Virus record (IMG/VR): IMGVR_UViG_3300026136_000011
Span: 1 to 49,330 of that record
Length of the DNA: 49,330 bases
Direction: 5' to 3' (one strand)
Source: a virus
In this document: positions 1-16,413 of the stretch, in pieces
Layout: every line of letters begins with the position of its first letter
How positions within the stretch are numbered: the first letter of the stretch is position 1
Program-made: the position numbers and the translations under genes
Notes under the pieces: generated by a model
Told to the model about the DNA's origin: nothing
Database searches by the model: none
The model's input: only the letters and a program-made list of their open reading frames with translations

Positions 1-108
1 ATATGTTGGACAATAAGTGCAATCAAAATTACATCTTCTGCCTACATACCAATCTACAGAAAACCATCCTGTATCGTTATGTGTAAAAAATTCTGCAACT
101 GCTTCCAT
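1..108 (-). CDS. Radical SAM protein, N-terminal fragment (runs off the window)
   Basis: The reading frame starts at the ATG at 108-106 and stays open to base 1, giving 36 residues. Residues 26-33 read CNFDCTYC, the C-x3-C-x2-C motif that binds the 4Fe-4S cluster of radical SAM enzymes. It lies about 26 residues from the start, as in the two SPASM-type neighbours. The start codon overlaps the stop of the upstream dehydrogenase gene as TAATG, so the gene is translationally coupled to the cluster. It is the seventh radical SAM protein here. The remaining domains and therefore the substrate class cannot be seen. Confidence 0.8.
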   Translation of the reverse strand, partial: MEAVAEFFTHNDTGWFSVDWYVGRRCNFDCTYCPTY

Positions 109-683
109 TATTCGTCTTTAATCCTTATTTTGTCTAAACAAACTTCACTTATGTTTACATCAGTAGGTTGTTTTACTAACCATTCAACTACTCCAGCAAC
201 ATAATCAGCAGATAACTTTTTCATTGTTGGATGTTTTTTATCTTGTGCTGGTGTGTGAATATGTCCTGGCGAAATATAAGTTGTTTTGAATCCTGAATAT
301 TCTTCGCCCGATACTATTTGACTCAATCCTCTCATATAGGCTCTCAAGGCTTTTTTATCTGTTGGATACAACCACGTACTTGCTTTCACTGGTGTGTCGG
401 CACTTGACCCAAATGCTATTAAGTATCCGTTATGTTTATTTTCTTTCCACAGTTTTGCGACTTCTTGCACCAATGTTGTTTGATGAAACTTCCATAATGA
501 ACTAACACTTATGAATATATCATAATCGAGACTTATTTGTGCCAGTTCACGTTGTCTCTTGTACAGGGTTAGATCTAACTGCAAACCATTTGACCTACAA
601 CAAAAAGTTGCATTAGGAAAAACTTTCGCCAATGCTTTTGCAACTCCGTATTCTGGATTACCTGCGATTAATATTTTAGACAT
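108..683 (-). CDS. Short-chain dehydrogenase/reductase-like protein
   Basis: This 191-residue protein has the outline of a short SDR oxidoreductase. The N-terminus (ILIAGNPEYGVAKALAK) fits the first beta strand and helix of a Rossmann fold, although the usual TGxxxGxG motif is degenerate. Ser93/Ser94 in AFGSSADTP and Tyr106-x3-Lys110 in YPTDK match the SDR catalytic Ser-Tyr-Lys set, and SPGHIHTP resembles the PG motif that follows it. Most SDRs have about 250 residues, so this is a shortened form. It sits between two radical SAM genes, overlapping the upstream one by 8 bases and the downstream one as TAATG. A role in oxidising or reducing a sugar or peptide intermediate is inferred from context only. 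Confidence 0.7.
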   Translation of the reverse strand: MSKILIAGNPEYGVAKALAKVFPNATFCCRSNGLQLDLTLYKRQRELAQISLDYDIFISVSSLWKFHQTTLVQEVAKLWKENKHNGYLIAFGSSADTPVKASTWLYPTDKKALRAYMRGLSQIVSGEEYSGFKTTYISPGHIHTPAQDKKHPTMKKLSADYVAGVVEWLVKQPTDVNISEVCLDKIRIKDE

Positions 684-1815
684 TCATTGTCTCCTTTAAA
701 TTAATATCGATTTTATTTTTTCCGTATACGCTTGAAAATTCATATTCTTCTCCGCACGTTCTAGCACAGGCAGTTAGTCTCGGAATAGCATCACTCTGCT
801 TTCCTTTCCAACTTGAACAAAAACTTTCCTTAAAATACTCGTGAGTTAAAATTTTATCAAACGAGTTGTGTCTTAAACTATTAAAGTCCCATCCATAATA
901 ATCTAAAATTTTGTGTAATTCTGATTGTTGTTTATTTTTACCGAAATGGTACATTCCACTTGCTACCCAATTACAAGGCCAAACTCTAGAATGAAAATCA
1001 ACAAATAGTTTGCCAATCGGCTTTGCTTTACATTTAATCACAGTAGAATCGAAATATTTTTCCCAACTACCGTATTTGTCTATAATATTTTTTCCTTGTT
1101 CTAAACTTTTGGGTCTAAATTTATTTTCTTTAGCAAGTTCTAAAACATACTTGCTTTTACGTGTTGTAACTTTTTTTGAATCATTTATATCTTTATTTTC
1201 TTGATAGTTTAATTCGTCTATGAATCTGCTGGTTAGTTTAAAACGAATATTGTTAAATCCAATACTTTGTGCTATATTTTTTGCTTCATCTACTTGATGT
1301 TCGTTATGTCCAAACACAAGATAATCCCATCTTGCATTTCCCCCGGCATCTATAAATGCTTTTGCATTATTCATTATTAATTTCCATTTTGCATTAACTC
1401 TGTATTTGTGATTTGTGTCCTCTAAACCATCTATGCTAAAAGCAACTTTATTATTAGGATTATTACCTAATATTTTAGCAAGTTGCGTCCACCAGTCTGC
1501 GTTACGTACTGATCCGTTTGTGTTTATAATAATCCTTCCGTTGAAATCTTTATGATTTACAATATATTCTAGTGCAGGCATAAACGTTTTACTGACACCA
1601 ACTTCACCGTAGTTCCCACAAAAATTAATCCGTTCCAAATGTTTTACAACAGGTTCGATTATTTTATGATAATCTTCGACTGTTAATTCTGTTATAGGCA
1701 ATTCAGGTATGGTTCCTCCTTTGTACGTTCTTGCACACTGCGGACATCTTAGATTACAGTCACTATTATGATCTATCTGTATATCTCTAACCTCGTCTAA
1801 ATTTAGATAATGCAT
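676..1815 (-). CDS. Radical SAM/SPASM-type enzyme
   Basis: This 379-residue protein has the radical SAM cluster motif CNLRCPQC at residues 20-27, followed by a TIM-barrel-like region with NTNGS and FSIDGLEDTNH motifs. The C-terminal third is cysteine-rich (CKAKP, WPCNW, then Cys333, Cys350 and Cys354), as expected for SPASM-type auxiliary iron-sulfur clusters. Such enzymes cleave S-adenosylmethionine to a radical that modifies peptides, proteins or sugars. It is a clear paralogue of the protein at 4452-5537; both contain GGxARWDYLVF and NEHQV. Its start overlaps the stop of the upstream gene as TAATG, and it overlaps the SDR gene by 8 bases. The substrate is unknown. Confidence 0.88.
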   Translation of the reverse strand: MHYLNLDEVRDIQIDHNSDCNLRCPQCARTYKGGTIPELPITELTVEDYHKIIEPVVKHLERINFCGNYGEVGVSKTFMPALEYIVNHKDFNGRIIINTNGSVRNADWWTQLAKILGNNPNNKVAFSIDGLEDTNHKYRVNAKWKLIMNNAKAFIDAGGNARWDYLVFGHNEHQVDEAKNIAQSIGFNNIRFKLTSRFIDELNYQENKDINDSKKVTTRKSKYVLELAKENKFRPKSLEQGKNIIDKYGSWEKYFDSTVIKCKAKPIGKLFVDFHSRVWPCNWVASGMYHFGKNKQQSELHKILDYYGWDFNSLRHNSFDKILTHEYFKESFCSSWKGKQSDAIPRLTACARTCGEEYEFSSVYGKNKIDINLKETMNV

Positions 1816-3053
1816 TAATCTAATAATCTCCCAAATTCCGGTATTACTTTAGCAAAGTCCTCGCCTCGTCTTTGATCTAGTTTACCAGTGTAATCTTTAA
1901 AAGCATCTCCATAAAGATGCCAATTATCTTGACTCATTGTATATTTCACTAGATAATCCCAATTTTCTTGTTGTCTTTTTGTTGGTGCGTCTACTAACTT
2001 TTTCGCAACAATTTCTTTTGCCCACTGCGGTAATGTAGTGCAACTTACATATTTTGGATTTAAACAATGAGTATGATTGATCCATGCACCGTTATCAAAC
2101 TTATCACGATAATGTTTATTCATCATATCTGCCCACCATCGTGTTATATTTGGTACATCTAAAACATTCATTAAAGTTATTGTGGGTCTCGTACCAACAT
2201 GAACGTTCATATCTTTACTCAATCTCATTAATGTTTCAACAACTTTTTCAACTTGCGTCCATTTTGTTGGATAACGTTGGTATTCTATTACGGGGCCTAC
2301 TCCGTCTATACTTGTAGCGAATTCAACTTTTCTAAACTTACTCCAAAGTTCAATTAATTTTTTTGAAGGCATAACAGTACAGTTTGTTGAATAATTTAAA
2401 TACACTTCTTTCGCTCTGCCCATAGCAACAATTCTTTCCAATATCTCTCTGTACTCAGGAATCAAGAAAGGTTCTCCGCCTGTCATTTTGATGTGTCTTA
2501 TTGTTGGCAATACTGAATTTAATTTGTCAATATCTATAACATTGTCTTTGTTACTTTGTGCAATTACTTCGTCTATTTGGTCATCTGTGATTTTTGCTTG
2601 ATTATACTTGAATCCAATCACGTGTCTTTTTACTGCTTTCCAGTCTTTATACCAATTGGTGCTAAAATATGGACCACACATTCTACAACTTAAATTACAT
2701 CTATTACTAAAACTTAATTCAAGCCAAGTAATTTTTGGCTTTGACATATCTAAATCTTTGTGTAAATCTCCAATGTCTGGTAGTGTTCTATTATAGTTCT
2801 GTCTAATGCTTAATCTTTTTCCGCCATCTTCTTCTTGCCAACACTTAACGCAACCTTTGTGCCTTATTCCATTGGCCAAATCTTTTCTCACTTCGTCTTG
2901 ATGTTTTCCTAAAAATACATCTTCTAAACTATCTTTGCCTTTGATAGATTTTTTAGTGTCTGGTGGCATAACAAACCTACAACAAGGTTTTATATTTCCA
3001 TCAGGTCCTATAAATTGATGATTCCACGCAATACTACAAAAAGTGTCAGCCAT
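1815..3053 (-). CDS. Radical SAM protein with N-terminal twitch-type cysteine domain
   Basis: This 412-residue protein belongs to the radical SAM group that carries its auxiliary cluster domain at the N-terminus. Cys6 (FCSIAW), Cys24-Cys25 (KPCC) and Cys68-x2-Cys71 (CVKCW) come first. The SAM cluster motif CNLSCRMC follows at residues 119-126, then the SAM-binding GGEP motif (MTGGEPF). The layout matches two other proteins in this window, at 3053-4459 and 11573-12901. The ATG overlaps the stop of the upstream paralogue as TAATG, and its own stop does the same with the next gene, so the genes are probably co-translated. Proteins of this design occur in phage and polysaccharide gene clusters. 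The reaction is unknown. Confidence 0.88.
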   Translation of the reverse strand: MADTFCSIAWNHQFIGPDGNIKPCCRFVMPPDTKKSIKGKDSLEDVFLGKHQDEVRKDLANGIRHKGCVKCWQEEDGGKRLSIRQNYNRTLPDIGDLHKDLDMSKPKITWLELSFSNRCNLSCRMCGPYFSTNWYKDWKAVKRHVIGFKYNQAKITDDQIDEVIAQSNKDNVIDIDKLNSVLPTIRHIKMTGGEPFLIPEYREILERIVAMGRAKEVYLNYSTNCTVMPSKKLIELWSKFRKVEFATSIDGVGPVIEYQRYPTKWTQVEKVVETLMRLSKDMNVHVGTRPTITLMNVLDVPNITRWWADMMNKHYRDKFDNGAWINHTHCLNPKYVSCTTLPQWAKEIVAKKLVDAPTKRQQENWDYLVKYTMSQDNWHLYGDAFKDYTGKLDQRRGEDFAKVIPEFGRLLD

Positions 3054-4459
3054 TATAATATATCCTTGAATATTGGGAAAACTTTTAAAAATTTGTCATC
3101 CCATCCACGTTGTTTGTTAAGAAGATTAATCCATTCTTTAGTTTGTGGTAATCTTTCACTCCAATCCTCTGCCATCATAAAGTTAATAACACCTTTGAAA
3201 CGTTTTAATCCATATGTCGCTTTTAAAAAATCATCTTTTGATATACCTGCTTCTTTTACTCCGGTAAACCTTTCCCAATTTTCTTCAATCCAAGGATAGA
3301 ATTCATTTTCATATTTGTCTTTTATCTTCTGTTTTACATTTTGAGGTAAAACTTTAACATTCAATTGAGGAGGCCAATATGCAAAGTGACTGTTTATTCC
3401 TCCAGCACCCAATGGCCATTTGTTTAATTTTTTAAATCCTTGGTCTATCTTCCACTGCGTAAATTCTGGAAGGTATGCTATATTAAGTGCCATTATTGTT
3501 GTTGCCGTTGTTACTTCAATTTGCGGTGCAGTGTTATCTAATATATGGAATACTTCTTCTTGTCTTGCCCACTTAGAAGGATATCTAATATAATCATTTT
3601 GTTCTCCCAATGCATCAATTGAATAATGAAATCTTACTCTTTTAAATTCATTCCATAGATCAAAAAGATCATCTCTCCACTCCACAGCATTTGAATTATA
3701 TCTTAATTCCATATTTTTTGCGTGACCTCGTTTAATACACTCCTCTAATAATTCATAATGTTCGTCAATGATTAGTGCTTCACCTCCAGCAAAATACAAT
3801 TGATACATATTTGGTATTTGATCCATAAGATCATTCCAAAATTTTGGATTATTTTTATGCCAATTATAACTAGCACCAAAGTCTTTACCTTTGTTATGCC
3901 AAGAAGATGTTGTTTTTAATTTTTCATTTTGTATTGTAGGATGTATTTGTTGCCATTCTTTTATCCAACCCGATGAATCATGAGGAGAACACATTACACA
4001 GGCCAATTGGCATTTGCTTCCTAAACGCAAATCAATGTATCTGATTTTTGGAGGTATAGAGCCATCTTCTTTTGTTTGCCCAATCATATCATCTAGTGTA
4101 TATCTTCTCAACCAGTATTCAGTTTCCCAGTTCCTTTTGCTGTAATGACCTGCGTCTTCTTCTTTGTAACATTTTAAACAAGGTGCAGGTTTTTCTCCAC
4201 GCAACATCATTTTTCTTACATTACGCATATACGAACCATTCCACGCCTCTTCTAATGTTGTTGTGTTAAAGTTTGCCGGTTTGCCGTCTTCTCTTTTTAC
4301 AACACCAACTTGACCTCCTCCGACTTTTTTGTTCGAGTCTGGATCTTGTACAGAACTTGCATTTGATGTACAACAAGTTCTCATACTACCGTCTGGTCTA
4401 CTGCTTAAATGCATCCACGGTAACGCACAAAAAGTATTCGAAGGTAATTTTCTACTCAT
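3053..4459 (-). CDS. Radical SAM protein with N-terminal twitch-type cysteine domain
   Basis: This 468-residue paralogue of the next gene downstream has Cys11 (FCALPW), Cys29-Cys30 (RTCC) and Cys94-x2-Cys97 (CLKCY) in its N-terminal auxiliary-cluster domain. The radical SAM motif CQLACVMC is at residues 150-157, and a GGEA sequence stands where GGEP is usual. An insertion of about 20 residues rich in charged and Gly residues follows the CC pair. The start overlaps the upstream SPASM gene by 8 bases. Two such enzymes in direct succession suggest either two modification steps on one substrate or a heteromeric enzyme; this is inference. Confidence 0.88.
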   Translation of the reverse strand: MSRKLPSNTFCALPWMHLSSRPDGSMRTCCTSNASSVQDPDSNKKVGGGQVGVVKREDGKPANFNTTTLEEAWNGSYMRNVRKMMLRGEKPAPCLKCYKEEDAGHYSKRNWETEYWLRRYTLDDMIGQTKEDGSIPPKIRYIDLRLGSKCQLACVMCSPHDSSGWIKEWQQIHPTIQNEKLKTTSSWHNKGKDFGASYNWHKNNPKFWNDLMDQIPNMYQLYFAGGEALIIDEHYELLEECIKRGHAKNMELRYNSNAVEWRDDLFDLWNEFKRVRFHYSIDALGEQNDYIRYPSKWARQEEVFHILDNTAPQIEVTTATTIMALNIAYLPEFTQWKIDQGFKKLNKWPLGAGGINSHFAYWPPQLNVKVLPQNVKQKIKDKYENEFYPWIEENWERFTGVKEAGISKDDFLKATYGLKRFKGVINFMMAEDWSERLPQTKEWINLLNKQRGWDDKFLKVFPIFKDIL

Positions 4460-5537
4460 ACTGTGACCCCACTACATCAAATTGTTTTGAACATTTCATT
4501 GCACAAACTTTTAATCTTCCTTCTCTACAACCTTTTATATTCCAACTTTGCTCAATACTTTCAAATATTCCTGAATCAAACACTCCTTCTAATCCAACTT
4601 TTAAAGCATTCAAGGAATCTTTTCCTCCTGCTCTATCTATATGACCCCAAATTTGTTCTACTCGAGGATCAGGTTGCCACCATTTGTACATTCTACCTGC
4701 TGTCCAACAGCAAGGCATAACTACTCCTTCGGCACTCACATATAAACTTCCTGTTTCTGCAACTCTGCATTGAATACCAACTTGATCATAGAACTTATCC
4801 ATAGTACCATATTCTTTCAATATACTGTTCTGTTTTAATAATGCTGGATTTTGTAAATTTTTACTGGACGGTTCTTTTAATAATGTAGTCTTACTGCCCT
4901 TTCTGTTAACTGCTTGGTGACTATCCTTTTTCTCTGATGTGTGTCCTGTTATAAATCTTGAACTTTTCTTTGCGATAAATTTTTCAAATCCCCATTTTTT
5001 ACTTAATTCTCTTGCTTCCTCTACTTGATGCTCATTGAAGTCAAACACCAAATAATCCCAACGTGCTCTACCTCCAGCACCTATAAAAGCATCCATAGAT
5101 CTTTTTACTTTGCTCCATTGCACATTTTGTCTATATAGGTGATTTGTGTCTTCCAGTCCATCAACACTAAAAATTACAAGTCCGTTCCTTCCTAATGTTT
5201 TGGCCAATTCTGCCCACCACTCTGGTTCTCTTGCACCTGCGTTTGTGTTCATACTCAACCACATATCTTTATTGTGTTCTCTAAAGTATTGATATGTTTC
5301 TAATGTATGCTCTGCAATAATAGGATCTCCTAGGTTACCGCACAGTTGCGTTGCTGTTAATTGCTTAATGAATGTTGGACTAAAAATTTCTTTGATGTGT
5401 TCTATTTTTAATTCGTCTAAGTTGATGTGAGGATTTAAGGCACCACCGTTTTGATTCCTGTCGCACATCGGACAAGCGGCTTGGCATTTTTGAGTGATTT
5501 CTAGATGAATTTGTTTTATATCTTCGAGTTTATACAT
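4452..5537 (-). CDS. Radical SAM/SPASM-type enzyme
   Basis: This 361-residue protein opens with the radical SAM motif CQAACPMC at residues 18-25, close to the N-terminus, with no twitch domain in front. It has NTNAG and FSVDGLEDTNH in the barrel region and C-terminal cysteines (MPCCW, then CREG and CAMKC) that fit auxiliary clusters. It is paralogous to the protein at 676-1815. It is the first gene of the left block of radical SAM genes, and the 63-base gap before it holds a TATAAT box. No Shine-Dalgarno sequence precedes the ATG. Confidence 0.88.
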   Translation of the reverse strand: MYKLEDIKQIHLEITQKCQAACPMCDRNQNGGALNPHINLDELKIEHIKEIFSPTFIKQLTATQLCGNLGDPIIAEHTLETYQYFREHNKDMWLSMNTNAGAREPEWWAELAKTLGRNGLVIFSVDGLEDTNHLYRQNVQWSKVKRSMDAFIGAGGRARWDYLVFDFNEHQVEEARELSKKWGFEKFIAKKSSRFITGHTSEKKDSHQAVNRKGSKTTLLKEPSSKNLQNPALLKQNSILKEYGTMDKFYDQVGIQCRVAETGSLYVSAEGVVMPCCWTAGRMYKWWQPDPRVEQIWGHIDRAGGKDSLNALKVGLEGVFDSGIFESIEQSWNIKGCREGRLKVCAMKCSKQFDVVGSQYE

Positions 5538-5551
5538 AAAAATTACAAGTT

Positions 5552-5557
5552 ATTATA
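5552..5557 (-). promoter_or_regulatory. Candidate -10 box upstream of the left radical SAM block
   Basis: On the minus strand this reads TATAAT, 14 bases before the ATG at 5537. A start about 7 bases downstream would leave a leader of about 8 bases. No good -35 hexamer is visible at 16-18 bases, so recognition by an unaided host sigma-70 is doubtful. The 63-base gap that holds it is one of the few breaks in the cluster. Confidence 0.35.
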
Positions 5558-5596
5558 ATAGTATCCTAGCGGATAAATCTATTTTTTTACTTGCTT

Positions 5597-5605
5597 GTAT
5601 TTATT
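5597..5605 (-). promoter_or_regulatory. T4-late-like promoter motif AATAAATAC
   Basis: The minus strand reads AATAAATAC, one mismatch from the T4 late core TATAAATA plus its usual following C. It overlaps the TAA stop of the small gene at 5601-5825 and lies about 60 bases before the ATG at 5537. The 12-base sequence AATAAATACAAG recurs exactly at 17424-17435. AT-rich DNA yields such matches by chance, so confidence is limited. Confidence 0.35.
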
Positions 5606-5825
5606 CTTCAATAATGAGCTTTATGTGTTTACCAGGTCCTTTTTTACTAGGTAAATCTCCATACTTATTAACGTAGTCTTTAATGATTGCTTTGTACCAT
5701 TGCTGACTATCATGATGAGCCAATTTATTGTACTTAGAAAGATTGTTGTTTGTAGCACTAAAACATTTTATTGCTTTAGCACATTCAATTTGTAATTGTC
5801 GCAGTTTTAAATTATCTAATTCCAA
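5601..5825 (-). CDS. Small unknown protein, TTG start
   Basis: This 74-residue basic protein has no family I recognise. Its two cysteines (Cys15 and Cys21, in IECAKAIKC) lie in the N-terminal third, and it ends PGKHIKLIIEE. The frame has no ATG. The likely start is TTG at 5825, preceded by AAGG about 10 bases upstream, and the gene overlaps the methyltransferase-like gene by 14 bases. Its position directly before five radical SAM genes makes a peptide substrate or carrier conceivable, but there is no leader or core pattern that proves it. A small accessory protein is equally possible. Confidence 0.55.
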   Translation of the reverse strand: MELDNLKLRQLQIECAKAIKCFSATNNNLSKYNKLAHHDSQQWYKAIIKDYVNKYGDLPSKKGPGKHIKLIIEE

Positions 5826-6525
5826 TTCGCATATACCTTGTGTATTTTATTAAGTCTAAAGTTCCATTGTACAAACATTTTGTCATTGGTGTTTGTGTTT
5901 CAAACTCTTCCAGATCCTTTGCACAGTTAACGTGTTCTTCTAATTGATCGTAATTATTTGATTGCATCACAACTAATTTTCCTTTAGGAATTTTAGCATA
6001 CCAATCTTTAAAATTGTGTATATGTTCGCAACTTGTATTGATTACTGTGTCGCAAATATCTGTTAATGTTACATCCTGATTTTCTGTTTTGCTCCAAGCA
6101 CTATAAGTATGCGGTTGGTCAAAAGTAATTTTATGAATGTCTTGCGTAACTGCTTTGAATTTCCATTGCTCTTTAACTTTATTTCTGTTTATTGTATCGG
6201 CTATCTGCCAACAAGTTTCGTCTATATCAAAACTTCTTATTTTTTTTATACTACACGTACTATCAAAAAGCATTGCCGCAAGTGTACCATACCAACCAGC
6301 ACACAAAAATATTGTGCCAAGGCCTAAAAATTGATTTTCACTTATATTTTCTAATTCTTTTACAAGCCATCTTTTACTTTTTAGTTGTCCGATAGAAAAT
6401 GCATCGGAAAAATCTGCGTCAAAATGATCAACTGCGTTTCTCAAACGTAAAAATAATTTGTTACCTGTCAGTAATTCTAATCTGCCGTACAAATCTTTAT
6501 CGTCTATGTAATTAATTTTGCTCAT
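5812..6525 (-). CDS. Class I SAM-dependent methyltransferase-like protein
   Basis: The protein has 237 residues from the ATG at 6525. The sequence IFLCAGWYGTLAAML looks like the glycine-containing SAM-binding loop (motif I), followed by SFDIDETC, whose acidic residues fit the end of strand beta-2. KGKLVVMQSNNY occupies the position of a later core strand. I place the start at 6525, where AGAAAGA precedes the ATG; another ATG at 6555 would extend the protein by 10 residues but has no ribosome site. The gene overlaps its upstream neighbour by 14 bases. The acceptor is unknown; neighbouring sugar genes suggest a glycan or peptide. Confidence 0.6.
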   Translation of the reverse strand: MSKINYIDDKDLYGRLELLTGNKLFLRLRNAVDHFDADFSDAFSIGQLKSKRWLVKELENISENQFLGLGTIFLCAGWYGTLAAMLFDSTCSIKKIRSFDIDETCWQIADTINRNKVKEQWKFKAVTQDIHKITFDQPHTYSAWSKTENQDVTLTDICDTVINTSCEHIHNFKDWYAKIPKGKLVVMQSNNYDQLEEHVNCAKDLEEFETQTPMTKCLYNGTLDLIKYTRYMRIGIR

Positions 6526-7189
6526 TGAATCTTTCTTGTAACCAATTAAAATCATTTATTTTTTTAAGTGCATCTGTATTTCCAATATTTGCTGTGCCAT
6601 ACTCTCTTCCTTGTTTGGCACCTGCTACACAATAGTCGCCAAAATCTCCGTTGTCCACTGTACACCATACATCTAATCTATCTTCGGTTTCTGTGTCCTT
6701 TTGCCTATCTATAACTTTACTAGATAACTTAACGCATTCTCTGAATGCACTTTTCCAGGTATTGAAAGGATCTGTATTGAATTCAGTTAAGTTGGATACT
6801 TCTGGCATAGATCTAAAACGTGGACTTATGCTGGTTGTCATATCGGTGGATGTAACATCTTGGTCTATTGTCATTTGTCTTGGAAATAATTTTACACCGC
6901 CGTATCCATATAGTAGTCCATTAATAGGATTTTTACATTTCCACACATGGACTATGTCTTCGTCCCATTCTTCTGCTTTGTATGTAAAATTAAAATTATC
7001 TAATATAAGTGCATCTGCATCGACTATCCAAAACATTTTAGTCCAACACATTTTTGCACCTTTGATATGTGCTTGATGTAATCCTTTTACACTGTCAACA
7101 CGTTTGGCCATCGGAAACCGATCTGTTAAACGTTTCCAATTTTTATCTTTGTATTTTTCTTTGTATCCTATAAAAACTATATCATACAT
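6512..7189 (-). CDS. Glycosyltransferase-like protein, DxD type
   Basis: This 225-residue protein carries WIVDADA with Asp57-x-Asp59, the metal and nucleotide-sugar binding motif of GT-A folds. It shares several blocks with the protein at 12928-13854: VKG..AH, NGLxYGxGGxKxxP, W.xxFREGVK-like and GAxQGxxxxT. The two are paralogues, this one being shorter. I use the ATG at 7189, which overlaps the stop of the upstream dehydrogenase as ATGTATGA; the frame also opens at a GTG at 7201. The sugar and acceptor are unknown. The call rests on the DxD motif and context, because no full GT family signature is obvious. Confidence 0.6.
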   Translation of the reverse strand: MYDIVFIGYKEKYKDKNWKRLTDRFPMAKRVDSVKGLHQAHIKGAKMCWTKMFWIVDADALILDNFNFTYKAEEWDEDIVHVWKCKNPINGLLYGYGGVKLFPRQMTIDQDVTSTDMTTSISPRFRSMPEVSNLTEFNTDPFNTWKSAFRECVKLSSKVIDRQKDTETEDRLDVWCTVDNGDFGDYCVAGAKQGREYGTANIGNTDALKKINDFNWLQERFNEQN

Positions 7190-8339: not shown

Positions 8340-9876
8340 CTTCTTTTTCTATTAATGATTTAAAATTTTCAACAATTTTATTATGTAAGGTTTTTTCTAA
8401 TGTTGATCCTCTATGCATAAGAGTTCTGAAGTTATGCTCACAAATTTCTCTTGTTTTTTCATACACAAACTTCTTGTGTTTGGGAGAACTCCTGCACCAT
8501 TTCAATACTTCTTCTAGAGCCATTGTTGCTCTGTTCCAATCGTGTTTCTTATTGTCATACTCTTCATTGAAATGCTCATCAAACGTCCTGTACCCTAATC
8601 TTTTTAAACCTTCTAAAGTTTTCCATTGTCCTACTACAATAAAAGGTCTTTTGTAAAACATTGGTTTAAATGTTTTTTCTGAAACAAAACTATCAGGAAA
8701 ATTTGTCGAATCGGCATATGTTTCTGTGACTACGTGAAGCATAGACACTAGATATTTTTCTGGATCCGTATCTTTATTTGGATTGGCTCCTTCATGAACA
8801 TTATGCCTATCATTTTTAATTTGCATAGGTAACAATCCTGCAATTCTTTTATTATAAATTTTCATTAGATTTGCTGTAAGTTGCTCATATCTTGGAGGTT
8901 GTCCATGGACTAATTCATCTCTAATTTTATACAGATCTTCCTTGTCTTTTGAAAAATGCCATTTGTTCTGTCCAACTTTGTATAAAAACCATCTATAATC
9001 TTTTCTTTTAGCATAAGAAATTTTATCTTCTATATATTCTCGTGCTAATTTTTGATATTTTAAAAAGTCTGGTTCGTCCTTGTAATGATCTGTCCAAGTA
9101 TCGCCAACATATGTTTCATAGTATATTGGGTCTCTTTCTCTATAAACATTTTCCACAAATTCGGGATTATTTGTTAACTCCATTGTCCTAAATTGTTCAA
9201 GTGCTTTTTCAAAATGATCCTTACAAGTTTCGTCGCCATAAAAATTATCTTTGAATGAAGAATCTTTTGATAAATGTGTAAGTATTCCAAACTTATGATA
9301 CTCAAATAATTTTATTAAAGCATAGAACCTATGCCAGTCGGGCCTTCTGTTTAAACATAAAAAATATTTGTAAGGATAAAATCTTACATTATTTTGCATT
9401 CTTTCTATTTTTTTGTAAAATACTTCGTGCCATTGCCATTCCATTTTATTTGCATATAAGGCACAATATTCTTTATTGCCGAAATCATTTAATGATGCTG
9501 TAACAAAAATAAAATGTTTTTTTTCTAACCAAGAATGATTGTGATCTTTTATTGTTTGAAATATTTTTTGGAACTCTTTGTCTCCCCAATTTTCCATCCA
9601 TCCTAACAGCATTATTTTACAACGACCACTTCTAACAGCGGCCTGTGTTTCGTCAGGTAATTCCCAATGTTTTAAAACTTTTTCTTTTGCTACCAATCTA
9701 TGTCTTAATTCAAATAAAATTACAAAATTGCCTTTTGGAATCTTGTATACTGGTTTAAAATATTCTTTTAATTGAAATTCTGTTTTATCTAATTTTAATT
9801 CAGGATAGTCTTCTGGTAATACATTCCAGTTGTCCTTTAAATAATTGTCTTTGTTTTTAACGTAATAGTAAATCAT
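8326..9876 (-). CDS. Exostosin-like glycosyltransferase candidate
   Basis: This 516-residue protein has an N-terminal region without a recognised motif and a C-terminal block (residues about 399-432) that begins SEKTFKPMFYKRPFIVVG. That block resembles the nucleotide-sugar region of exostosin/GT47-like GT-B proteins, where a conserved Ser-Glu-Lys/Arg and Pro-Phe or Pro-Val occur. YFLCLNRRPDWHR near residue 170 is another block often seen with it. The gene overlaps the upstream SGNH-like gene by 20 bases and the dehydrogenase gene by 14. A glycan role is inferred; no membrane segment or signal peptide is visible, so it should act in the host cytoplasm. Confidence 0.6.
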   Translation of the reverse strand: MIYYYVKNKDNYLKDNWNVLPEDYPELKLDKTEFQLKEYFKPVYKIPKGNFVILFELRHRLVAKEKVLKHWELPDETQAAVRSGRCKIMLLGWMENWGDKEFQKIFQTIKDHNHSWLEKKHFIFVTASLNDFGNKEYCALYANKMEWQWHEVFYKKIERMQNNVRFYPYKYFLCLNRRPDWHRFYALIKLFEYHKFGILTHLSKDSSFKDNFYGDETCKDHFEKALEQFRTMELTNNPEFVENVYRERDPIYYETYVGDTWTDHYKDEPDFLKYQKLAREYIEDKISYAKRKDYRWFLYKVGQNKWHFSKDKEDLYKIRDELVHGQPPRYEQLTANLMKIYNKRIAGLLPMQIKNDRHNVHEGANPNKDTDPEKYLVSMLHVVTETYADSTNFPDSFVSEKTFKPMFYKRPFIVVGQWKTLEGLKRLGYRTFDEHFNEEYDNKKHDWNRATMALEEVLKWCRSSPKHKKFVYEKTREICEHNFRTLMHRGSTLEKTLHNKIVENFKSLIEKEDVGN

Positions 9877-10633
9877 TCTCTTTTATGTAATTATGCACTT
9901 CTTTGGCGAACTCATTTTGTCCTGGTTGTCCTACGTGTTGGTTTGGATTCCATACTGTATTTGGATCTTTTTTAAATCTTTCAAAATAACATTCTTTGTA
10001 AATGTTCCTATGATCTAGTAGATTATATAAAGCATTGAGTTTTGGCACTTTGTTAATTTTATGCATATCAAAATCAAATAACATATTAATAAACAGGTGT
10101 TTGATGTTATGTTTTTGCAGAAATGATTGCAAAGTGAAATGTTGTAGTATTGTTCTATATTGCATTTCCGTCCAACTACCCCAATGTGTACGCAATAACT
10201 CTTTGTACATAATCTCGTGTTTGTCTTTCATTGGCACAACATTTTTTGATTTCTTTGCACCAAGCAATCCGGGTATGAACATATAATGATTTAAAAATTT
10301 GTTATCTCCAGGTTCATCCGATTCTAGAAATAATCTATCAGATCCTGTCCACCCAATCAAAACAAACAGTTCGTCTTTGTTTTTATGTTTTTGTATAAAA
10401 TTAATTGTGCTTTGTAATATGTGATCATTACTTGATCCGGGTATGGCATTGTTTATTATTGTTTCAACATTTAAGTTTCTGCCCATTGTGTTTGCCCAGG
10501 AATCATTATAACAGTGTTGAGGTATTTCTTGAATCGTTCCATCCTTTGGCCAAGTAGGTCCACCTTTTTCCCATGAGTCTAGTTCTACTCCTGCGGTGTG
10601 GCTACATCCATTGATGTATAAAGTTTTTATCAT
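9857..10633 (-). CDS. SGNH/GDSL hydrolase-like protein
   Basis: This 258-residue protein begins INGCSHTAG, which places Ser11 where the block I nucleophile of SGNH hydrolases lies. Gly66-Ser67-Ser68-Asn69 (PGSSND) fits the oxyanion region, IGWTGSDR is a further conserved-looking block, and His233 in NQHVGQPGQ may be the catalytic base. Family members hydrolyse or transfer acyl groups on sugars or lipids. With sugar genes around it, sugar O-acetylation or deacetylation is a reasonable guess. It has no signal peptide. Its ATG overlaps the upstream stop as ATGA, so translation is coupled. Confidence 0.65.
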   Translation of the reverse strand: MIKTLYINGCSHTAGVELDSWEKGGPTWPKDGTIQEIPQHCYNDSWANTMGRNLNVETIINNAIPGSSNDHILQSTINFIQKHKNKDELFVLIGWTGSDRLFLESDEPGDNKFLNHYMFIPGLLGAKKSKNVVPMKDKHEIMYKELLRTHWGSWTEMQYRTILQHFTLQSFLQKHNIKHLFINMLFDFDMHKINKVPKLNALYNLLDHRNIYKECYFERFKKDPNTVWNPNQHVGQPGQNEFAKEVHNYIKENDLLLR

Positions 10634-11589
10634 ACTTTCTCTTTTGTTAACAAAACATCAATAGTACAATGACATCTATCTTTGATACATATAGAAGGTG
10701 CTGTTGGCCAATTAATTTTTTCTGGTTCGTTTATGTCTCCTATAACTCCACCCTGGAAACAGTTTGCCATTTGTATCTTTCCTGTATATTGTATAAACAA
10801 ACTTTCTAATCCCATATGGCATTTCCAACCTTTGAAATTTGTTTTTCCTGCATTGATAAGTTCTTGTTCATTACCGCTTGAATTGATCACTTCGCCGTCC
10901 TCAAAATGAATGTTTGAACAACTATCAAAATATTTTCTTTTGGGCCATACTTCTGCTTCTTGAAATAGATTTGTATTTTCAAACCATTTAAGTTGTTCTT
11001 CCGTATAATTTCTTCCTGCCATATTTCCTGGCATCCAGTCAAGTATTTTTACTGCTTCTACTGTAATATTTTTGTGTTTTTTACAACTATCTAAAAATTT
11101 TAATGCGGTATCCCAATGATTACTGTCCATCATAACCCTGATATTTGTTGGAGTAATATCTGCGGCGGCAAGTGCTTTTTCTAAAAATTGTTTATCTTCA
11201 AAACTTGGATGAAAACTAGAAGATATGTAAGCAAGGTATGGTGCCAGTTGTGCCATATATCTTGGAGTTCTAGCAAAGTTTGTTGTTATACCTGTTTTGC
11301 CTCCTGTGTCATGAATCATTTTTGCAAAGTCTAGTAAGAAAGGACTTAGAGTTGGTTCGCCACCCGAAATACTAACGTGTAATTTATCGTATTTGTTTAA
11401 TAATAATTGCCAAAATCTTTTTGCATTTTCCCAATCGTAGTGATGATTTTTTCCTTTATGCAAATTAGGTGGACAATACGAACAAGCATTTGTACAGATA
11501 TTATTAATAACCCAAGTAACTGCCATTACACCCGGAGTTCTTCTTTGTACTTTGACTACCGGTGTTTTATTTTCATTTAAACTTTTCAT
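10630..11589 (-). CDS. Radical SAM enzyme
   Basis: Starting from the ATG at 11589 the protein has 319 residues. The cluster motif CTNACSYC is at residues 32-39, followed by SISGGEPTLSP, the SAM-binding GGEP strand. C-terminal cysteines (CHMG, ANCFQGG, DRCHC) may hold an auxiliary cluster. The frame stays open upstream to 11628, but GAGGAGG directly precedes 11589 and marks it as the real start. The start lies within the end of the upstream radical SAM gene, and the stop overlaps the SGNH-like gene as ATGA. It is not closely paralogous to the other five complete proteins, so it probably does a different step. Confidence 0.87.
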   Translation of the reverse strand: MKSLNENKTPVVKVQRRTPGVMAVTWVINNICTNACSYCPPNLHKGKNHHYDWENAKRFWQLLLNKYDKLHVSISGGEPTLSPFLLDFAKMIHDTGGKTGITTNFARTPRYMAQLAPYLAYISSSFHPSFEDKQFLEKALAAADITPTNIRVMMDSNHWDTALKFLDSCKKHKNITVEAVKILDWMPGNMAGRNYTEEQLKWFENTNLFQEAEVWPKRKYFDSCSNIHFEDGEVINSSGNEQELINAGKTNFKGWKCHMGLESLFIQYTGKIQMANCFQGGVIGDINEPEKINWPTAPSICIKDRCHCTIDVLLTKEKV

Positions 11590-12901
11590 ATGCCTCCTCA
11601 TAAACTCCTGGATACATATTTCTAACATCTTCTAACTCAGGAATTGTTTTAAAAATACTTTCTTTTCTAAGTTTATCTAATTTTGCGTGTTTTTCTAAAA
11701 ATAGTTTTGCGTATTTTCCATTATGTGGTGTTTCTAATCCAGACATTACTTCTTTTAATTTAGGTGTTGGATCATAATCATATTTTTCTTTAAAATCTAG
11801 AATCCAAAATTTATAATTTTGCAGAATTTCTTTTTTGAATTTATCACTTAAAATACTAATATGTAAATCTTCGGGCCAGTGTACAAAGTTTAAGAACCAG
11901 TTATTATACTTTACTTTCCAGGTATTGGAATTTTGGTTAGCATAGTTGTCATGAATTAGTCCTAACTTAATAAAGTGTTCAATGATTTCAGGCAACCTGA
12001 ACACGTTTAAAGCACCTACTGTTATTCCTGGTTGTATAAAAATATCGTTACTCAATCCAGTAAGTGTCTCGATATTTTTTGCTGTTTTTTCCCACACAGT
12101 TCCTGAACGCACTAGCTCTGCTCTATGTCCAAACTCATCTAAACTTGGCCATACTTCAATCTTTCCTGGATCCCATAATTTCCAGTAATCAATTACACTT
12201 TTTCCTTTATGTTCGAGTTTTGACATATTTGTATTGTACATTATTCTAACATCAAACCTTTTATATTTTTTTAGTAAATCTAAAATATACCAATGGTCTT
12301 CCATCATCATTGGCTCACCACCCGCAAAATAAATTCTTTCAACGTGTTTAATTTGATCTTCTAAGAAAGTTAATTTAGATTGTCCTTCTATGTCGCTTAC
12401 GATATTCAAACCTTTTTTGTTTTCGCTCATATACTTCTTTTTACCCCAAATTTTTATTGCATCTGGTACCCATGAAGAACTATATTTTGGTCCACAACTT
12501 CTGCATTTTAAATTACAAATATTGCTGAATCTCATATCCCAATATTTTAATCTCATTTCAGGTACTGTGCCATCGGGCAAAGTAATTTCTTCAACTTTTT
12601 TCATTACTTCTTTGTAAGTTTTATTATTGTGTTGTCTGTTTGAACGCATACCTTTGTCTTCCATATGCCAACATTTAGAACAGATTTTTGGACGAGATCC
12701 AGAAAGCATTTCTCTTCGTAATGCTTTTTGTTTTGGACTATTCCATATTTCTTGTATTGAATTAGTTTCTAGATCTCCGAGATCATAATTGTATGGAGAT
12801 GTAAGACAGCACGGTATTACTTTGTTGTGTGGCTCAAATTGTAAATGAACCCACGGTATAATACAGAAACTTTTGGATTGTTTTAAATCGTCATACTTCA
12901 T
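11573..12901 (-). CDS. Radical SAM protein with N-terminal twitch-type cysteine domain
   Basis: This 442-residue protein has Cys13 (FCIIPW), Cys31-Cys32 (IPCC) and Cys74-x2-Cys77 (CSKCW) in the N-terminal auxiliary-cluster domain, the SAM motif CNLKCRSC at residues 129-136, and FAGGEPMM as the GGEP motif. It is the third member of this architecture here, the other two being at 1815-3053 and 3053-4459, about 7 kb away. The following gene is another radical SAM enzyme, which overlaps it and is probably translated from an SD inside its last codons. A 26-base gap separates it from the upstream glycosyltransferase-like gene. Confidence 0.88.
   Translation of the reverse strand: MKYDDLKQSKSFCIIPWVHLQFEPHNKVIPCCLTSPYNYDLGDLETNSIQEIWNSPKQKALRREMLSGSRPKICSKCWHMEDKGMRSNRQHNNKTYKEVMKKVEEITLPDGTVPEMRLKYWDMRFSNICNLKCRSCGPKYSSSWVPDAIKIWGKKKYMSENKKGLNIVSDIEGQSKLTFLEDQIKHVERIYFAGGEPMMMEDHWYILDLLKKYKRFDVRIMYNTNMSKLEHKGKSVIDYWKLWDPGKIEVWPSLDEFGHRAELVRSGTVWEKTAKNIETLTGLSNDIFIQPGITVGALNVFRLPEIIEHFIKLGLIHDNYANQNSNTWKVKYNNWFLNFVHWPEDLHISILSDKFKKEILQNYKFWILDFKEKYDYDPTPKLKEVMSGLETPHNGKYAKLFLEKHAKLDKLRKESIFKTIPELEDVRNMYPGVYEEAYEKFK
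11593..11599 (-). promoter_or_regulatory. Strong ribosome binding site GAGGAGG that sets an internal start
   Basis: The minus strand reads GAGGAGG three bases before the ATG at 11589. It lies inside the last codons of the upstream radical SAM gene (Glu-Glu-Ala). It favours 11589 over the longer open frame from 11628 and implies coupled translation of two radical SAM enzymes. Confidence 0.6.
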
Positions 12902-12927
12902 ACCTATATTTACTTGAAAATAGTAGT

Positions 12928-13854
12928 CTATTTTTTAATAATGAAGCTCTCTACTCCACGCACAGGATTCTGGTAAACCTGTTTGAAAAACTTGCTTTGT
13001 GACTCTGTAAGCGGTTCTGACCCTATGGGTAATTCTATGTCACTTATCAGTATTTCACCTAATCTTTTTATTTCTGCATCAAGACTTTTTGTTTTAAAAT
13101 TTTCTTCTTCTTTTTTCCACATCTCGTTTAGATACTCAAAATCTCTCGTGTTCACTATATCCCAATCAGTACACATTGTTAAATATGTGCCTTGTCTTGC
13201 TCCATATATCGCCCACAATCCATTGTCAGCATCTGCACCAACCATTTGCCATATGTACATTCTGTTTAAATTTTTCCAATGATTCTTTTTAAAATCATCT
13301 AAGTTGACTCTCGATCCTCTATCCAATGACATTTTTACACCTTCTCTGAATCCTGCTCTCCAGGCCTGTTGTGGTGTGTGGTTATTGTATACATCGCTGT
13401 ATGTTTGATTCATTTGTAAGTATCTAATATCCCAACAAAAATCTATTTGTGCGGCAACATCATCTGGATCTGCGTTTTCGTGTGTCTTCATATCTAACAC
13501 ATATTTTTTTGGCCAACATTTTAATCCACCATTTCCATAAATTAAACCGTTGACGACATTGTACCCACACCAACTAACAACACTGGTTGTTAAATCAACT
13601 GTGTCTGGATCAAAATCAATTTCAACGTCTAACCATTCTGGATTGATAATATTATCTCCGTCTACAGTTGTGAATCTTTCTGTTTCCGCTCTCTCGGCAC
13701 AGGCTTTGTGTGCCGCATCTGATCCTTTCACTCCGTGTACTCTTTTTACCCACGGTATCTTGTTACAAATATCTGCGTAATTTTTTTCAGCATTTGGCTC
13801 GTCATAGCTCAAATAAAAAATATCATGATCTCTTACTAAAAATTTTTTATGCAT
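12928..13854 (-). CDS. Glycosyltransferase-like protein, DxD type
   Basis: This 308-residue protein has TTVDGDNII with Asp65-x-Asp67, the GT-A metal-binding motif. It is a paralogue of the protein at 6512-7189, sharing VKGxxAxH, NGLIYGNGGLKCWP, AWRAGFREGVK and GARQG, and it has an extra 60-residue C-terminal segment rich in Lys and Glu. It overlaps the upstream unknown gene by 8 bases. Sugar transfer is inferred from the DxD motif and the gene neighbourhood. The GNGGxKxWP block is not a signature I can assign to a named GT family. Confidence 0.6.
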   Translation of the reverse strand: MHKKFLVRDHDIFYLSYDEPNAEKNYADICNKIPWVKRVHGVKGSDAAHKACAERAETERFTTVDGDNIINPEWLDVEIDFDPDTVDLTTSVVSWCGYNVVNGLIYGNGGLKCWPKKYVLDMKTHENADPDDVAAQIDFCWDIRYLQMNQTYSDVYNNHTPQQAWRAGFREGVKMSLDRGSRVNLDDFKKNHWKNLNRMYIWQMVGADADNGLWAIYGARQGTYLTMCTDWDIVNTRDFEYLNEMWKKEEENFKTKSLDAEIKRLGEILISDIELPIGSEPLTESQSKFFKQVYQNPVRGVESFIIKK

Positions 13855-14401
13855 TTTCTTTCACGTGATAATAATTGTTATAAATTCTTTTACAAAATAC
13901 ACTAATATTTAATTCATTTATTCCTTCATCTATATTTTCTATGTCACATTTTCCTTGTAATAAATCAACTTTAAACTGGTTATGTAGTATGTTTGGATTA
14001 TCCTTCTTTGTTATATAAAACATTTGCCACAGTGCATTACTGGATATCGAATTTAAAGTATCAACTATATCTCCCTGAACAACTAATTTCCATTTATTAT
14101 TTTTCGTATCTTGCACTATGTTTATTCCGTCTTTTATTTGATCAACAACTGGCACTTGATATATTATGTGTGAGGCGGGCGTCTCATTAATTTCCTCCTC
14201 TAACATACCGATACCTATTTCGTTTACTACATATTTTTTTAATTTTTCGTCATATAGCACTTTGAATTCTTCCAAACGTTTAGATCCAGATTTTATTTCA
14301 TTCGCTAGTATATCATTGATTTCGATGGATGTTTTTTGTTTGCTTGGACCAACTGCTATTGGAATTCCTGTTTCTGCGTTAAATTCAAGATACTGTTGCA
14401 T
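13847..14401 (-). CDS. Unknown protein in the glycan/radical SAM cluster
   Basis: I do not recognise this 184-residue protein. It is acidic in the N-terminal half (LEEEINETPA near residue 70), has a strand-like central part (NKWKLVVQGDIVDTL) and two cysteines in the C-terminal 35 residues. It has no signal peptide or membrane segment. The gene overlaps the upstream transferase gene by 17 bases and the downstream one by 8, so it is expressed with them. An accessory or acceptor role is possible but unsupported. Confidence 0.65.
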   Translation of the reverse strand: MQQYLEFNAETGIPIAVGPSKQKTSIEINDILANEIKSGSKRLEEFKVLYDEKLKKYVVNEIGIGMLEEEINETPASHIIYQVPVVDQIKDGINIVQDTKNNKWKLVVQGDIVDTLNSISSNALWQMFYITKKDNPNILHNQFKVDLLQGKCDIENIDEGINELNISVFCKRIYNNYYHVKENA

Positions 14402-15218
14402 TTGCTTCTTCTAGTTGTGTTATTAAGTAATCTGATAAAAAATTATTTTCTACATAATGTATAATTCCGTTTTGTTTAAAGTTACCAATATAAAAATTTT
14501 TATCAGAAAAATTTAGTGTAACTGCTGTACTTGCCTTTTGATATCTAAAACTCCAGCCTTGTTGTTTGGGTTTCAAGTGTACTACATTTATGAAAGAGTC
14601 TTTGGAGGTAATCTGTTCTTCATTGCACAAAAGTTTTGAAGTAATCGCAGAACTTACATCCATACTACACCATTTTTGTTTTTTCTTTGGCGTGTATTTT
14701 TTGTAAAATGTTTGCCAGTTTTCTATAACCACACGTTGCATTCTGTAAAACAAAGCGGCTTCTTCTGACTTTTCAAAATAACTGAAAGTGTTGTATAAAT
14801 TTGGCAACTCATTTTGTACAAAAGTTTTTCTATATGCTGTTGAATCACTGATTTTATCTCTATACGTTCTTACGGAAGATGCATAATATATCATATAATT
14901 TTTCAAGTACTTCCACCAACTGTTTAAATTTTCAGTTACCAATACATCTGCGTCCATCACTATGGTTTTCAAGTAAGGTGATATATCAAATGCATTTATT
15001 CTTTCTTCTACATTCAATAAACTGTTTGGTTTTGTTTTTTTAACAATTACATTATCAAAAACTTTACTGTATTTGGCCTCTGGCTCTGTGTTTGTTACAA
15101 CTGTTATATGAGCATCACTATTGTACAATTTTATGGACAATGCTAAAGCATATGCTTGTTTTAAGTAGTCTTCTTTCCAGGTATTGTTTGCGTATATCAA
15201 AAAACCTTTTTCTATCAT
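14385..15218 (-). CDS. Glycosyltransferase family 8-like protein
   Basis: This 277-residue protein has a GT-A outline. The N-terminus GFLIYANN..W is followed by helix-rich ALALSIKLYN, and TIVMDADVLV has Asp89-x-Asp91, the metal-binding motif. INVVHLKPKQQGW near residue 210 fits the C-terminal His/Lys block of GT8-type retaining transferases. It is related to the next upstream protein (15215-16069), which opens with a similar GVILFANNN. The ATG overlaps the upstream stop as ATGA. Donor and acceptor are unknown. Confidence 0.68.
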   Translation of the reverse strand: MIEKGFLIYANNTWKEDYLKQAYALALSIKLYNSDAHITVVTNTEPEAKYSKVFDNVIVKKTKPNSLLNVEERINAFDISPYLKTIVMDADVLVTENLNSWWKYLKNYMIYYASSVRTYRDKISDSTAYRKTFVQNELPNLYNTFSYFEKSEEAALFYRMQRVVIENWQTFYKKYTPKKKQKWCSMDVSSAITSKLLCNEEQITSKDSFINVVHLKPKQQGWSFRYQKASTAVTLNFSDKNFYIGNFKQNGIIHYVENNFLSDYLITQLEEANATVS

Positions 15219-16069
15219 ATGCCTTGACCCTCTATTAATCTTTCCAATGCAATTTTATTCATAATATGTACATTAATGTCTTTGGTTGTTGCTATAGAAT
15301 ATGTTCCTTTTTCGTTTGGATTTGCACACAAAAAAGTAAATCTATTGTCAACAAAGTCTTCAACTAAATCTCTGTCATATGTGTAGTACAATGTGCCTGG
15401 AAGTTTTGTTGGCCAATTGGTGTTTTCTTCAAATCCGTTCATAATATGGATAGCAATACTGAATGCAAAGTCGTTTCTAAAATTTACTGATGCAATTTGA
15501 TATATCCATCTGTAATATGCCCAATTGTCTTTGATATATTTTAAAAGTTCAAAAAACGTTTTTGTTTTTTTGTTTTTTTTGAAGTAAAACACAGTTGCCC
15601 AATACATTTCTATCGATACATCACTTACATTTCTTATTTCCCATGGCTCTCCTATTGGATTCAAATAGAATGCATCTTTCCATATCATAAAATCATCATT
15701 TAGTTTAAAACAATTTGATAAATTATCATTACACACAATATAATCAGTGTCCATCACAATAGTTTCATCATACGGAGTAAGATTATATGCATCAGATCTA
15801 TTAAAATTATTCCAGGGTAACTTTTTTGCTTTACCCATACCGTCCCGGAAAGTTTTTCTTTGAAATACTTGTATCTTTTTTGTAGAAATAACTTTATCGA
15901 AAGTGTCTATCAGTTTCGGATAATTGTTTGTTAAGTGTTTGGCCGAATCAGTTACTAACGATACTGGCAATTTTAAATATTTTTGCACCTGTTTTGCACA
16001 AAATATTGCCTGCCTCACATAATCTATTTCATCATTATTGTTGGCAAATAGTATTACACCTTTTGTCAT
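15215..16069 (-). CDS. Glycosyltransferase-like protein, GT8-like
   Basis: This 284-residue protein has the N-terminal strand GVILFANNN and ETIVMDTDYIV with Asp107-x-Asp109, in the same arrangement as its downstream neighbour. The C-terminal part (NVHIMNKIALERL) resembles the conserved His block that follows the active site in such proteins. It has a Lys-rich insertion near residues 160-175. It overlaps both neighbours by 4 bases (ATGA), and AGGA precedes its ATG. With the next gene it forms a likely pair of sequential transferases at the head of the operon. Confidence 0.65.
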   Translation of the reverse strand: MTKGVILFANNNDEIDYVRQAIFCAKQVQKYLKLPVSLVTDSAKHLTNNYPKLIDTFDKVISTKKIQVFQRKTFRDGMGKAKKLPWNNFNRSDAYNLTPYDETIVMDTDYIVCNDNLSNCFKLNDDFMIWKDAFYLNPIGEPWEIRNVSDVSIEMYWATVFYFKKNKKTKTFFELLKYIKDNWAYYRWIYQIASVNFRNDFAFSIAIHIMNGFEENTNWPTKLPGTLYYTYDRDLVEDFVDNRFTFLCANPNEKGTYSIATTKDINVHIMNKIALERLIEGQGI

Positions 16070-16413
16070 CTTCCTAAAACGTCTTTGATATCTCTTTTCT
16101 TAATTGTTTTTAATTGTGTGTAGTATTCATTTACGTTTTTAGAATATATGTCCATTGTGGTTTCCACAAAACTTTTAAAATCTTCAATTTGTACTGGATT
16201 GTCATTATCATCGATTATCACAACATCTTTTGTTTGTCCTTGTTGCAGTAGAAGATTAATAAAGTTTATAAATTCTTTGTTTATTTTAAAAGACGATCCA
16301 CTTGCATAGTGGACATTTTGATCTAAGAACTTTTGTTTCAGTATTCTTTTTTGATTGTTATAGGTTACCATGTAGTTGGAAAATTCCAACGCATTTTTTA
16401 GTTTTTCGTTCAT
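16066..16413 (-). CDS. Small unknown protein, first gene of the cluster
   Basis: This 115-residue protein has no family I recognise. It is charged and probably helical, with an N-terminal Lys/Asn-rich stretch, VVIIDDNDNPV at its centre and a C-terminus rich in Lys, Arg and Thr. Its ATG lies 7 bases after the -10 box of the promoter at 16420-16448 and has no Shine-Dalgarno sequence, so it may be read from a leaderless message. Its stop overlaps the next gene as ATGA. As the first gene it may be a regulator or scaffold, but nothing shows this. Confidence 0.65.
   Translation of the reverse strand: MNEKLKNALEFSNYMVTYNNQKRILKQKFLDQNVHYASGSSFKINKEFINFINLLLQQGQTKDVVIIDDNDNPVQIEDFKSFVETTMDIYSKNVNEYYTQLKTIKKRDIKDVLGR

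Follow-up and report, generated by a model that had tools for sequence, protein, structure and literature searches.

What would a marine phage do with seven radical S-adenosylmethionine (rSAM) enzymes and five glycosyltransferase-like (GT-like) proteins placed next to its fibre genes? The question is raised by the virus record IMGVR_UViG_3300026136_000011, a linear record of 49,330 bases (the window). Positions 108-16413 of it hold a gene cluster on one strand, the minus strand, whose content agrees with the initial annotation: six complete rSAM enzymes, the start of a seventh that runs off the contig, five GT-like proteins, a sugar dehydrogenase-like protein (UGD), a methyltransferase (MT), a short-chain dehydrogenase/reductase-like protein (SDR-like), a DUF6071/SGNH-like protein and three small proteins. 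The description of these genes as overlapping was right about the single strand and about most neighbors (overlaps of 1-56 nucleotides), but some junctions are gaps of 26, 63 and 64-68 nucleotides. We read the cluster as a separately promoted cytosolic operon of a T4-like marine myovirus that would make an rSAM-tailored saccharide, most likely on a fibre protein, and give this reading a probability of about 0.4. That the enzymes represent one co-inherited pathway appears very probable, and that its product is of saccharide type, probable.

A fixed core and a variable shell

The genes that recur in the viral relatives are, in the order of transcription:

16478..17383, minus strand: fib301, S/T-rich (30%) virion-like protein, candidate acceptor, with ATAAATA upstream near 17438
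16066..16413, minus strand: c115, head gene of the cluster, no assigned function
15215..16069, minus strand: GTd, GT-like, MDTDYI motif, relative of GTc
14385..15218, minus strand: GTc, GT-like, MDADVL motif
13847..14401, minus strand: c184, small conserved protein between GTc and GTb, with relatives in loci L003, L132, L138, L151 and L180
12928..13854, minus strand: GTb, GT-A-like, related to GTa by family grouping
6512..7201, minus strand: GTa, core GT-A-like protein, VDADA motif, no known family
5812..6555, minus strand: MT, core protein with the fold of a class I SAM methyltransferase in its predicted model; its viral relatives number at least 591
5601..5825, minus strand: sm74, conserved protein of 74 amino acids (aa), in 99 viral loci and in none of the Bdellovibrionota loci
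4452..5537, minus strand: R4, core rSAM with a C-terminal Cys-rich domain (model pLDDT 91)
3053..4459, minus strand: R3, core rSAM of the N-terminal-twitch type (N_Twi_rSAM), the most conserved member, with 169 viral relatives

The R3 profile matched 169 viral contig stretches, the best 80 of which were carried forward, and gene order was compared across about 160 related viral loci that had been retrieved with R3 and MT as queries (each distinct protein was counted once and overlapping fetches of one contig were mostly removed). The order fib301-c115-GTd-GTc-(c184)-GTb-...-GTa-MT-sm74-R4-...-R3 showed no inversion in viral loci for the core pairs tested: GTb precedes GTa in 42/42 cases, GTa precedes MT in 114/114, MT precedes R4 in 95/95, R4 precedes R3 in 92/92, GTd precedes GTc in 37/37 and fib301 precedes GTd in 33/33. 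Direct succession is most frequent at the head of the cluster, where fib301 is followed immediately by c115 (31 of 36), c115 by GTd (32 of 32) and GTd by GTc (all 37). Further along, GTa is followed by MT in 104 of 126 cases, MT by sm74 in 59 of 114 (or by R4 in 18) and R4 by R3 in 44 of 105 (by another rSAM in 31), while UGD lies ahead of GTa in 22 loci and is placed otherwise in 5. The median gap is negative, i.e., an overlap (-17 to -8 nucleotides), for GTa-MT, MT-sm74, sm74-R4 and GTd-GTc.

The number of rSAM genes, on the other hand, varies widely. In 26 viral records that were searched, those of 35 kb or more have 4-25 PF04055 matches each (a record of 5 kb has 2), and 25 of the 26 have a match over the curated cut-off at least once; the richest have 25 matches in 76.8 kb, 21 in 179.6 kb and 20 in 44 kb. 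In a search of 26 records for a gp25-like baseplate gene, 8 carry one, the window included; with 13-17 rSAM matches in five of these relatives, they are not misfiled bacterial DNA. The operon of the window itself runs on beyond the left contig edge, and in the long record closest to it (L003, 91 kb) 13 rSAM matches were counted. The accompanying genes include a 451-aa rSAM (54 loci), a QueC-like PP-loop protein (39), a carbamoyltransferase (27; Pfam matches of 185 and 130 bits) and a DegT aminotransferase (17); pyridoxal phosphate (PLP)-like enzymes (28), amidinotransferase-like proteins (26) and 2-oxoglutarate oxygenase-like proteins were labelled from their sequences, having no Pfam match. 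Given the invariant order and the varying rSAM number, the comparison of viral loci shows a fixed core (c115, GTd, GTc, GTb, GTa, MT, sm74, R4, R3) alongside a shell of other rSAM and tailoring genes that varies. The single pathway proposed initially was to be given up if related phages carried these genes scattered; the core order held in tens of deduplicated viral loci, although the extra rSAM genes have to be assigned to the shell.

The remaining genes of the window cluster are:

11573..12901, minus strand: R6, N_Twi_rSAM
10630..11628, minus strand: R5, rSAM, weakly viperin/NrdG-like (PF04055, 40.9 bits)
9857..10633, minus strand: DUF6071/SGNH-like (PF19547, 53.7 bits)
8326..9876, minus strand: GT516, GT-like, SEKTFKP...FIVVGQ stretch, no family match
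7182..8339, minus strand: UGD, UDP-glucose/GDP-mannose dehydrogenase-like, with GLGKLG and GGPCHPRD
1815..3053, minus strand: R2, N_Twi_rSAM
676..1815, minus strand: R1, MoaA/twitch-like rSAM of a family shared with R4 (PF04055, 40.3 bits)
108..683, minus strand: SDR-like, 191 aa, weak SDR matches only (best 26.6 bits)
1..108, minus strand: R7, 5' end of the seventh rSAM, ATG at 108, CNFDCTYC, cut by the contig edge, like the start of a Bdellovibrionota gene (L191:7329-8513)

All seven rSAM proteins have the CxxxCxxC motif by sequence, and PF04055 matches six sites in the window (R1, R2 and R5 over the cut-off, R3, R4 and R6 below it). R2, R3 and R6 (333, 422 and 346 bits) are members of NCBIfam NF033640, twitch domain-containing radical SAM proteins (membership cut-off 170 bits), a family name that carries no functional assignment; R1, R4 and R5 (47, 41 and 21 bits) fall below this cut-off and are other types of rSAM. 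GTa-GTd and GT516 gave no family match in Pfam or PHROGs, and the GT label comes from DxD-type motifs and from the family likeness of GTa to GTb and of GTc to GTd. UGD is over the cut-off for PF03721/PF00984 (phrog_9148, 280 bits) and below that of TIGR03026 (137 vs 189.8 bits). MT, with no family by sequence, has an AlphaFold model (pLDDT 82) that matches class I SAM methyltransferases in the PDB; sequence-profile searches of the PDB with MT, GTa and sm74 gave nothing usable, and an Rfam search no match. Relatives of the SDR-like protein occur in both phage and Bdellovibrionota islands, and one of them adjoins an R1-like gene (L192). Chance or annotation artefact as the source of the cluster was rejected on the family matches and on the purifying selection on its genes, with dN/dS of 0.06-0.39 for comparable homologues (0.50 for R1 against a distant paralogue; the R5 value is an artefact and not usable).

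In its gp5-like baseplate protein the phage comes closest to PA5oct/Paride-type jumbo phages (39.7% identity over 47% of the gp5-like gene); it is thus a T4-like myovirus, for which no close cultured relative was found. A pelagimyophage origin was discarded, since no pelagiphage appeared among the matches listed for this gene. Among 50,697 GenBank phages, R3, R4, GTa, MT, GTd and c115 give 0-4 weak records each; in the same set there was no match for GTa, and R3 had only rSAM similarity of 23-26%.

Promoters of the cluster and of the fibre genes

The initial annotation had placed the cluster behind the fibre genes. This holds for the position; the cluster is nevertheless more than an extension of a late fibre operon, since it has its own promoter, at a place conserved in relatives:

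16420..16448, minus strand: sigma70-type promoter, TTGACC-17-TATAAT (11/12), ahead of c115

Sites with at least 10/12 matches to TTGACA-17-TATAAT are found upstream of c115 in 21 of 33 distinct regions (including the window), versus 5% of dinucleotide shuffles (p=1.7e-19). In these 21 sites TTGAC is invariant and the flanks are variable, the -10 element ends mostly 19-26 nucleotides ahead of the ATG, and all strong sites have a spacer of 17. A different signal precedes the fibre genes: ATAAATA occurs within 110 nucleotides upstream of fib301 in 58% of relatives (chance 6%) and of fib500 in 45% (chance 4%), and upstream of c115, GTd, GTc and GTb in none. The upstream regions thus show T4-type late motifs for the fibre genes and a separate sigma70-type promoter for the cluster, and we infer that the cluster would have early-type transcription by the host polymerase. 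With no enrichment of the late motif at cluster genes, inclusion of the cluster in a late fibre operon is not supported.

Some relatives show a weaker sigma70-like enrichment upstream of GTa and GTb (25% and 24% vs 5-6%), which suggests internal promoters there. An ATAAATA ahead of R4 in the window (5604) was set aside, as relatives show no enrichment at this place (7% vs 7%). The sequence TATAAATA occurs three times in the window, and each copy is a minus-strand one close to the start of a structural gene; with 6.3 expected, the count is not above chance, but in relatives the positional signal is strong.

Counterparts in Bdellovibrionota and in other phages

A scan of 84,980 species returned 26 relatives of R3, of which three lie on phage-like contigs in bins of metagenome-assembled genomes (MAGs) and nearly all the others in Bdellovibrionota MAGs (the outliers are a bin labelled only 'bacterium' and a Planctomycetota on a 5.8 kb contig). 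The bacterial copies have 51-60% identity (31% in one case), some lie on contigs of 200-937 kb, and they are unevenly distributed, occurring in 7 of 144 Bdellovibrionota genomes. Sixteen of the genomes with an R3 relative contain 5-25 N_Twi_rSAM genes each, and control genomes none over the cut-off. Dense N-twitch rSAM clusters are seen on Bdellovibrionota chromosomes (L189-L194), with up to 25 genes per genome. Like the phage cluster, these (L191/L192, L193/L194, L189/L190) hold R1-R6-like rSAMs, SDR, MT, GTa and GTb homologues, together with GT2, QueC-like and Asp/Arg hydroxylase genes. Unlike it, they are chromosomal, use both strands, do not keep the order (9 vs 11 for R4/R3) and lack sm74, UGD and, with the exception of one contig, c115, GTc and GTd. 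By these sequence comparisons the toolkit is common almost only to these phages and Bdellovibrionota.

The exceptional contig is the chromosomal JABGUH010000022.1, from the Bdellovibrionales MAG SI034_bin15, on which fib301-c115-GTd-GTc-c163-GTb-R6-R2 follow in phage order (127-139.5 kb; L205:7061-19513). This module starts after a pheT-like gene and ends at the contig end; R3, a GTa-like gene and R5 precede it, and the other genes read as bacterial housekeeping (rnhB-, trmD- and pheT-like, by reading of the sequences). GTd was found in this genome alone among 291, with a query alignment that included that very copy. If the contig is sound, it indicates gene exchange between the phage and bacterial lineages, and it is a lead, not proof, for Bdellovibrionota as phage host. 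Phage contamination as the origin of the Bdellovibrionota matches was rejected: the absence of gp5 relatives in 16 genomes tested says little alone, and the long bacterial contigs and the gene content of JABGUH010000022.1 argue better. Recent transfer of R3 between phage and bacterium was also discarded, the tree placing bacterial R3 in one group (93/95) apart from viral R3; its root is distant and sets no direction of transfer. A fib535 search of Bdellovibrionota genomes, made without a positive control, was empty.

Island-like arrangements have been published for other marine phages. Host recognition clusters of pelagimyophages are rich in GTs and have rSAM cassettes near the fibres, for which a change of the O-chain was suggested (PMC7029224); they resemble the window in lying beside fibre/baseplate genes with GT and rSAM genes, although the phage lineage differs. 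The nearest system in a cultured phage is that of Pelagibacter phage Mosig EXVC030M (MT647606 61562-68321; L200:16563-23322), with three MoaA-like genes between baseplate and fibre genes, plus carbamoyltransferase, methyltransferase, aminotransferase and oxygenases. It has far fewer rSAM genes and a different baseplate lineage, and identity to the window is about 21% for R4 and 30% for MT. The 183 kb T4-like marine genome TARA_ERS488813_N000010, with 12 rSAM genes (PMC5332604), is rich in rSAM like the window and may be a member, or a relative, of its group, a comparison made by description only; the part of that source available presents an Fe-S gene count and no operon, order or pathway. Elsewhere rSAM is listed among viral genes (PMC7150976, PMC9301287). 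In the open-licence literature, as far as its accessible text goes, we found no account of this system (rSAM with carbamoyl- or amidinotransferase in phages, jumbo phages with fibres, Bdellovibrionota). The initial statement that no known pattern explains the cluster therefore needs narrowing: rSAM/GT cassettes and a 12-rSAM genome had been published, and that accessible text gave no earlier description of the fixed core, of the contrast between cluster and fibre promoters or of the counterpart in Bdellovibrionota.

Product and acceptor

In the reading that we prefer the enzymes would act as a single pathway, in which the GTs would transfer nucleotide sugars (UDP-uronate where UGD is present), MT would methylate sugars and the rSAM enzymes would alter unactivated carbons, the variable shell giving each phage its own saccharide variant. 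The carbamoyltransferase, DegT and QueC-like PP-loop companions in related islands point to sugar or natural product-type chemistry. The saccharide would be attached in the cytosol, with the S/T-rich fib301 or a neighboring fibre as the likeliest acceptor, so that virions would gain a variable surface chemistry. In a hydropathy scan no window cluster protein had a transmembrane segment (among proteins of 120 aa or longer, 3.4% of those in viral loci have one or more, vs 18.2% in Bdellovibrionota loci). Hence the pathway seems cytosolic, which makes models of an exported surface glycan less likely. Together with the linkage to fib301, whose S+T fraction of 0.30 is the highest among the window proteins examined, this leans toward an acceptor in the cytosol, for which a fibre protein would qualify, although fibre and host envelope are not separable as targets here. 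A fibre protein as acceptor is thus a tentative proposal.

Several observations weigh against it. The loci were chosen by R3/MT similarity, so that gene presence (though not order) is conditioned, and the binomial p=1.7e-19 of the c115 promoter ignores relatedness. This promoter also suggests expression early, before fibres are made. S/T richness is general in the fibre proteins of this phage (0.28 in fib484), and other Bdellovibrionota clusters carry R3/R4/MT/GTa/GTb but no fib301; the core can therefore act on a different acceptor. The identity of the GTs rests on motifs, and no rSAM enzyme has an assigned substrate. The structure prediction proposed initially gave a class I methyltransferase fold for MT; the predicted model of R4 is close to BlsE, SkfB, MoaA, anSME, SuiB, viperin and BtrN (TM scores about 0.45-0.55), fitting peptide-, nucleotide- and sugar-acting enzymes equally.

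The main rival, rather unlikely in our estimate, is an early host-takeover module that alters an envelope glycan (precursors made at the cytosolic face and exported by the host) and blocks superinfection. The conserved sigma70 promoter, so unlike the late motif of the fibres, would suit it, as would the Bdellovibrionota counterpart, which has GT2 genes nearby and cannot serve phage fibres. Gtr-type seroconversion cassettes do encode a membrane flippase or transferase, and by the hydropathy scan the window cluster includes no flippase, polymerase, ligase or any other membrane protein. A similar role was suggested for the pelagimyophage GT cassettes (PMC7029224). The strict linkage to fib301 speaks against this rival. 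The early-type promoter would also fit the synthesis of a hypermodified nucleobase or nucleoside for phage DNA or RNA, an improbable alternative. QueC-like, PLP-type and rSAM enzymes, all present in related islands, resemble pieces of deazaguanine or thymidine hypermodification pathways; the chromosomal counterpart in bacteria and the place among fibre genes speak against this. A search for Tet_JBP in 18 large viral records gave no match, but neither did its controls, so that it carries no weight.

The matches of the R4 model to SkfB, SuiB and anSME and the location of sm74 between MT and R4 would agree with a pathway for ribosomally synthesized and post-translationally modified peptides, the rSAM enzymes modifying a small peptide such as sm74. 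However, sm74, the only precursor candidate among the genes described here, is conserved over its full length with no variable core region and is missing from the Bdellovibrionota loci with R3/R4, and R4 matches MoaA, BlsE and BtrN as well. This explanation appears very improbable. Least probable of all appears a collection of unrelated metabolic cargo beside the fibre genes with no single product. The shell rSAM genes do differ strongly among relatives and the phage gene order is not kept in Bdellovibrionota, but the core has an invariant order, overlapping genes and a shared promoter, and R1-R6, SDR, MT, GTa and GTb co-occur in Bdellovibrionota too.

A broader and more doubtful extension of the saccharide reading is that marine T4-like phages and Bdellovibrionota share an undescribed class of rSAM-tailored saccharide pathway, its fixed GT-MT-rSAM core and fast-changing rSAM shell providing a surface chemistry for each phage, with genes exchanged with Bdellovibrionota, which the phages may infect. 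If the saccharide reading is right, GTa-MT-sm74-R4-R3 would be a defined, testable minimal set for a phage-borne rSAM glycan pathway, and the phages, with as many as 25 rSAM genes on a single viral fragment, would offer much rSAM chemistry that is still untapped. The promoter would give a handle on the timing of the pathway, and the host of an uncultured group of marine phages might be traced.

Outside the cluster, the minus strand codes for a single 4,297-aa open reading frame upstream of the fibre genes (24467-37360), probably a giant virion protein. Among the fibre genes (19269-20732, minus strand) lies a 487-aa protein that is mostly glycine-rich, with a C-terminus that is unlike the rest and non-repetitive.

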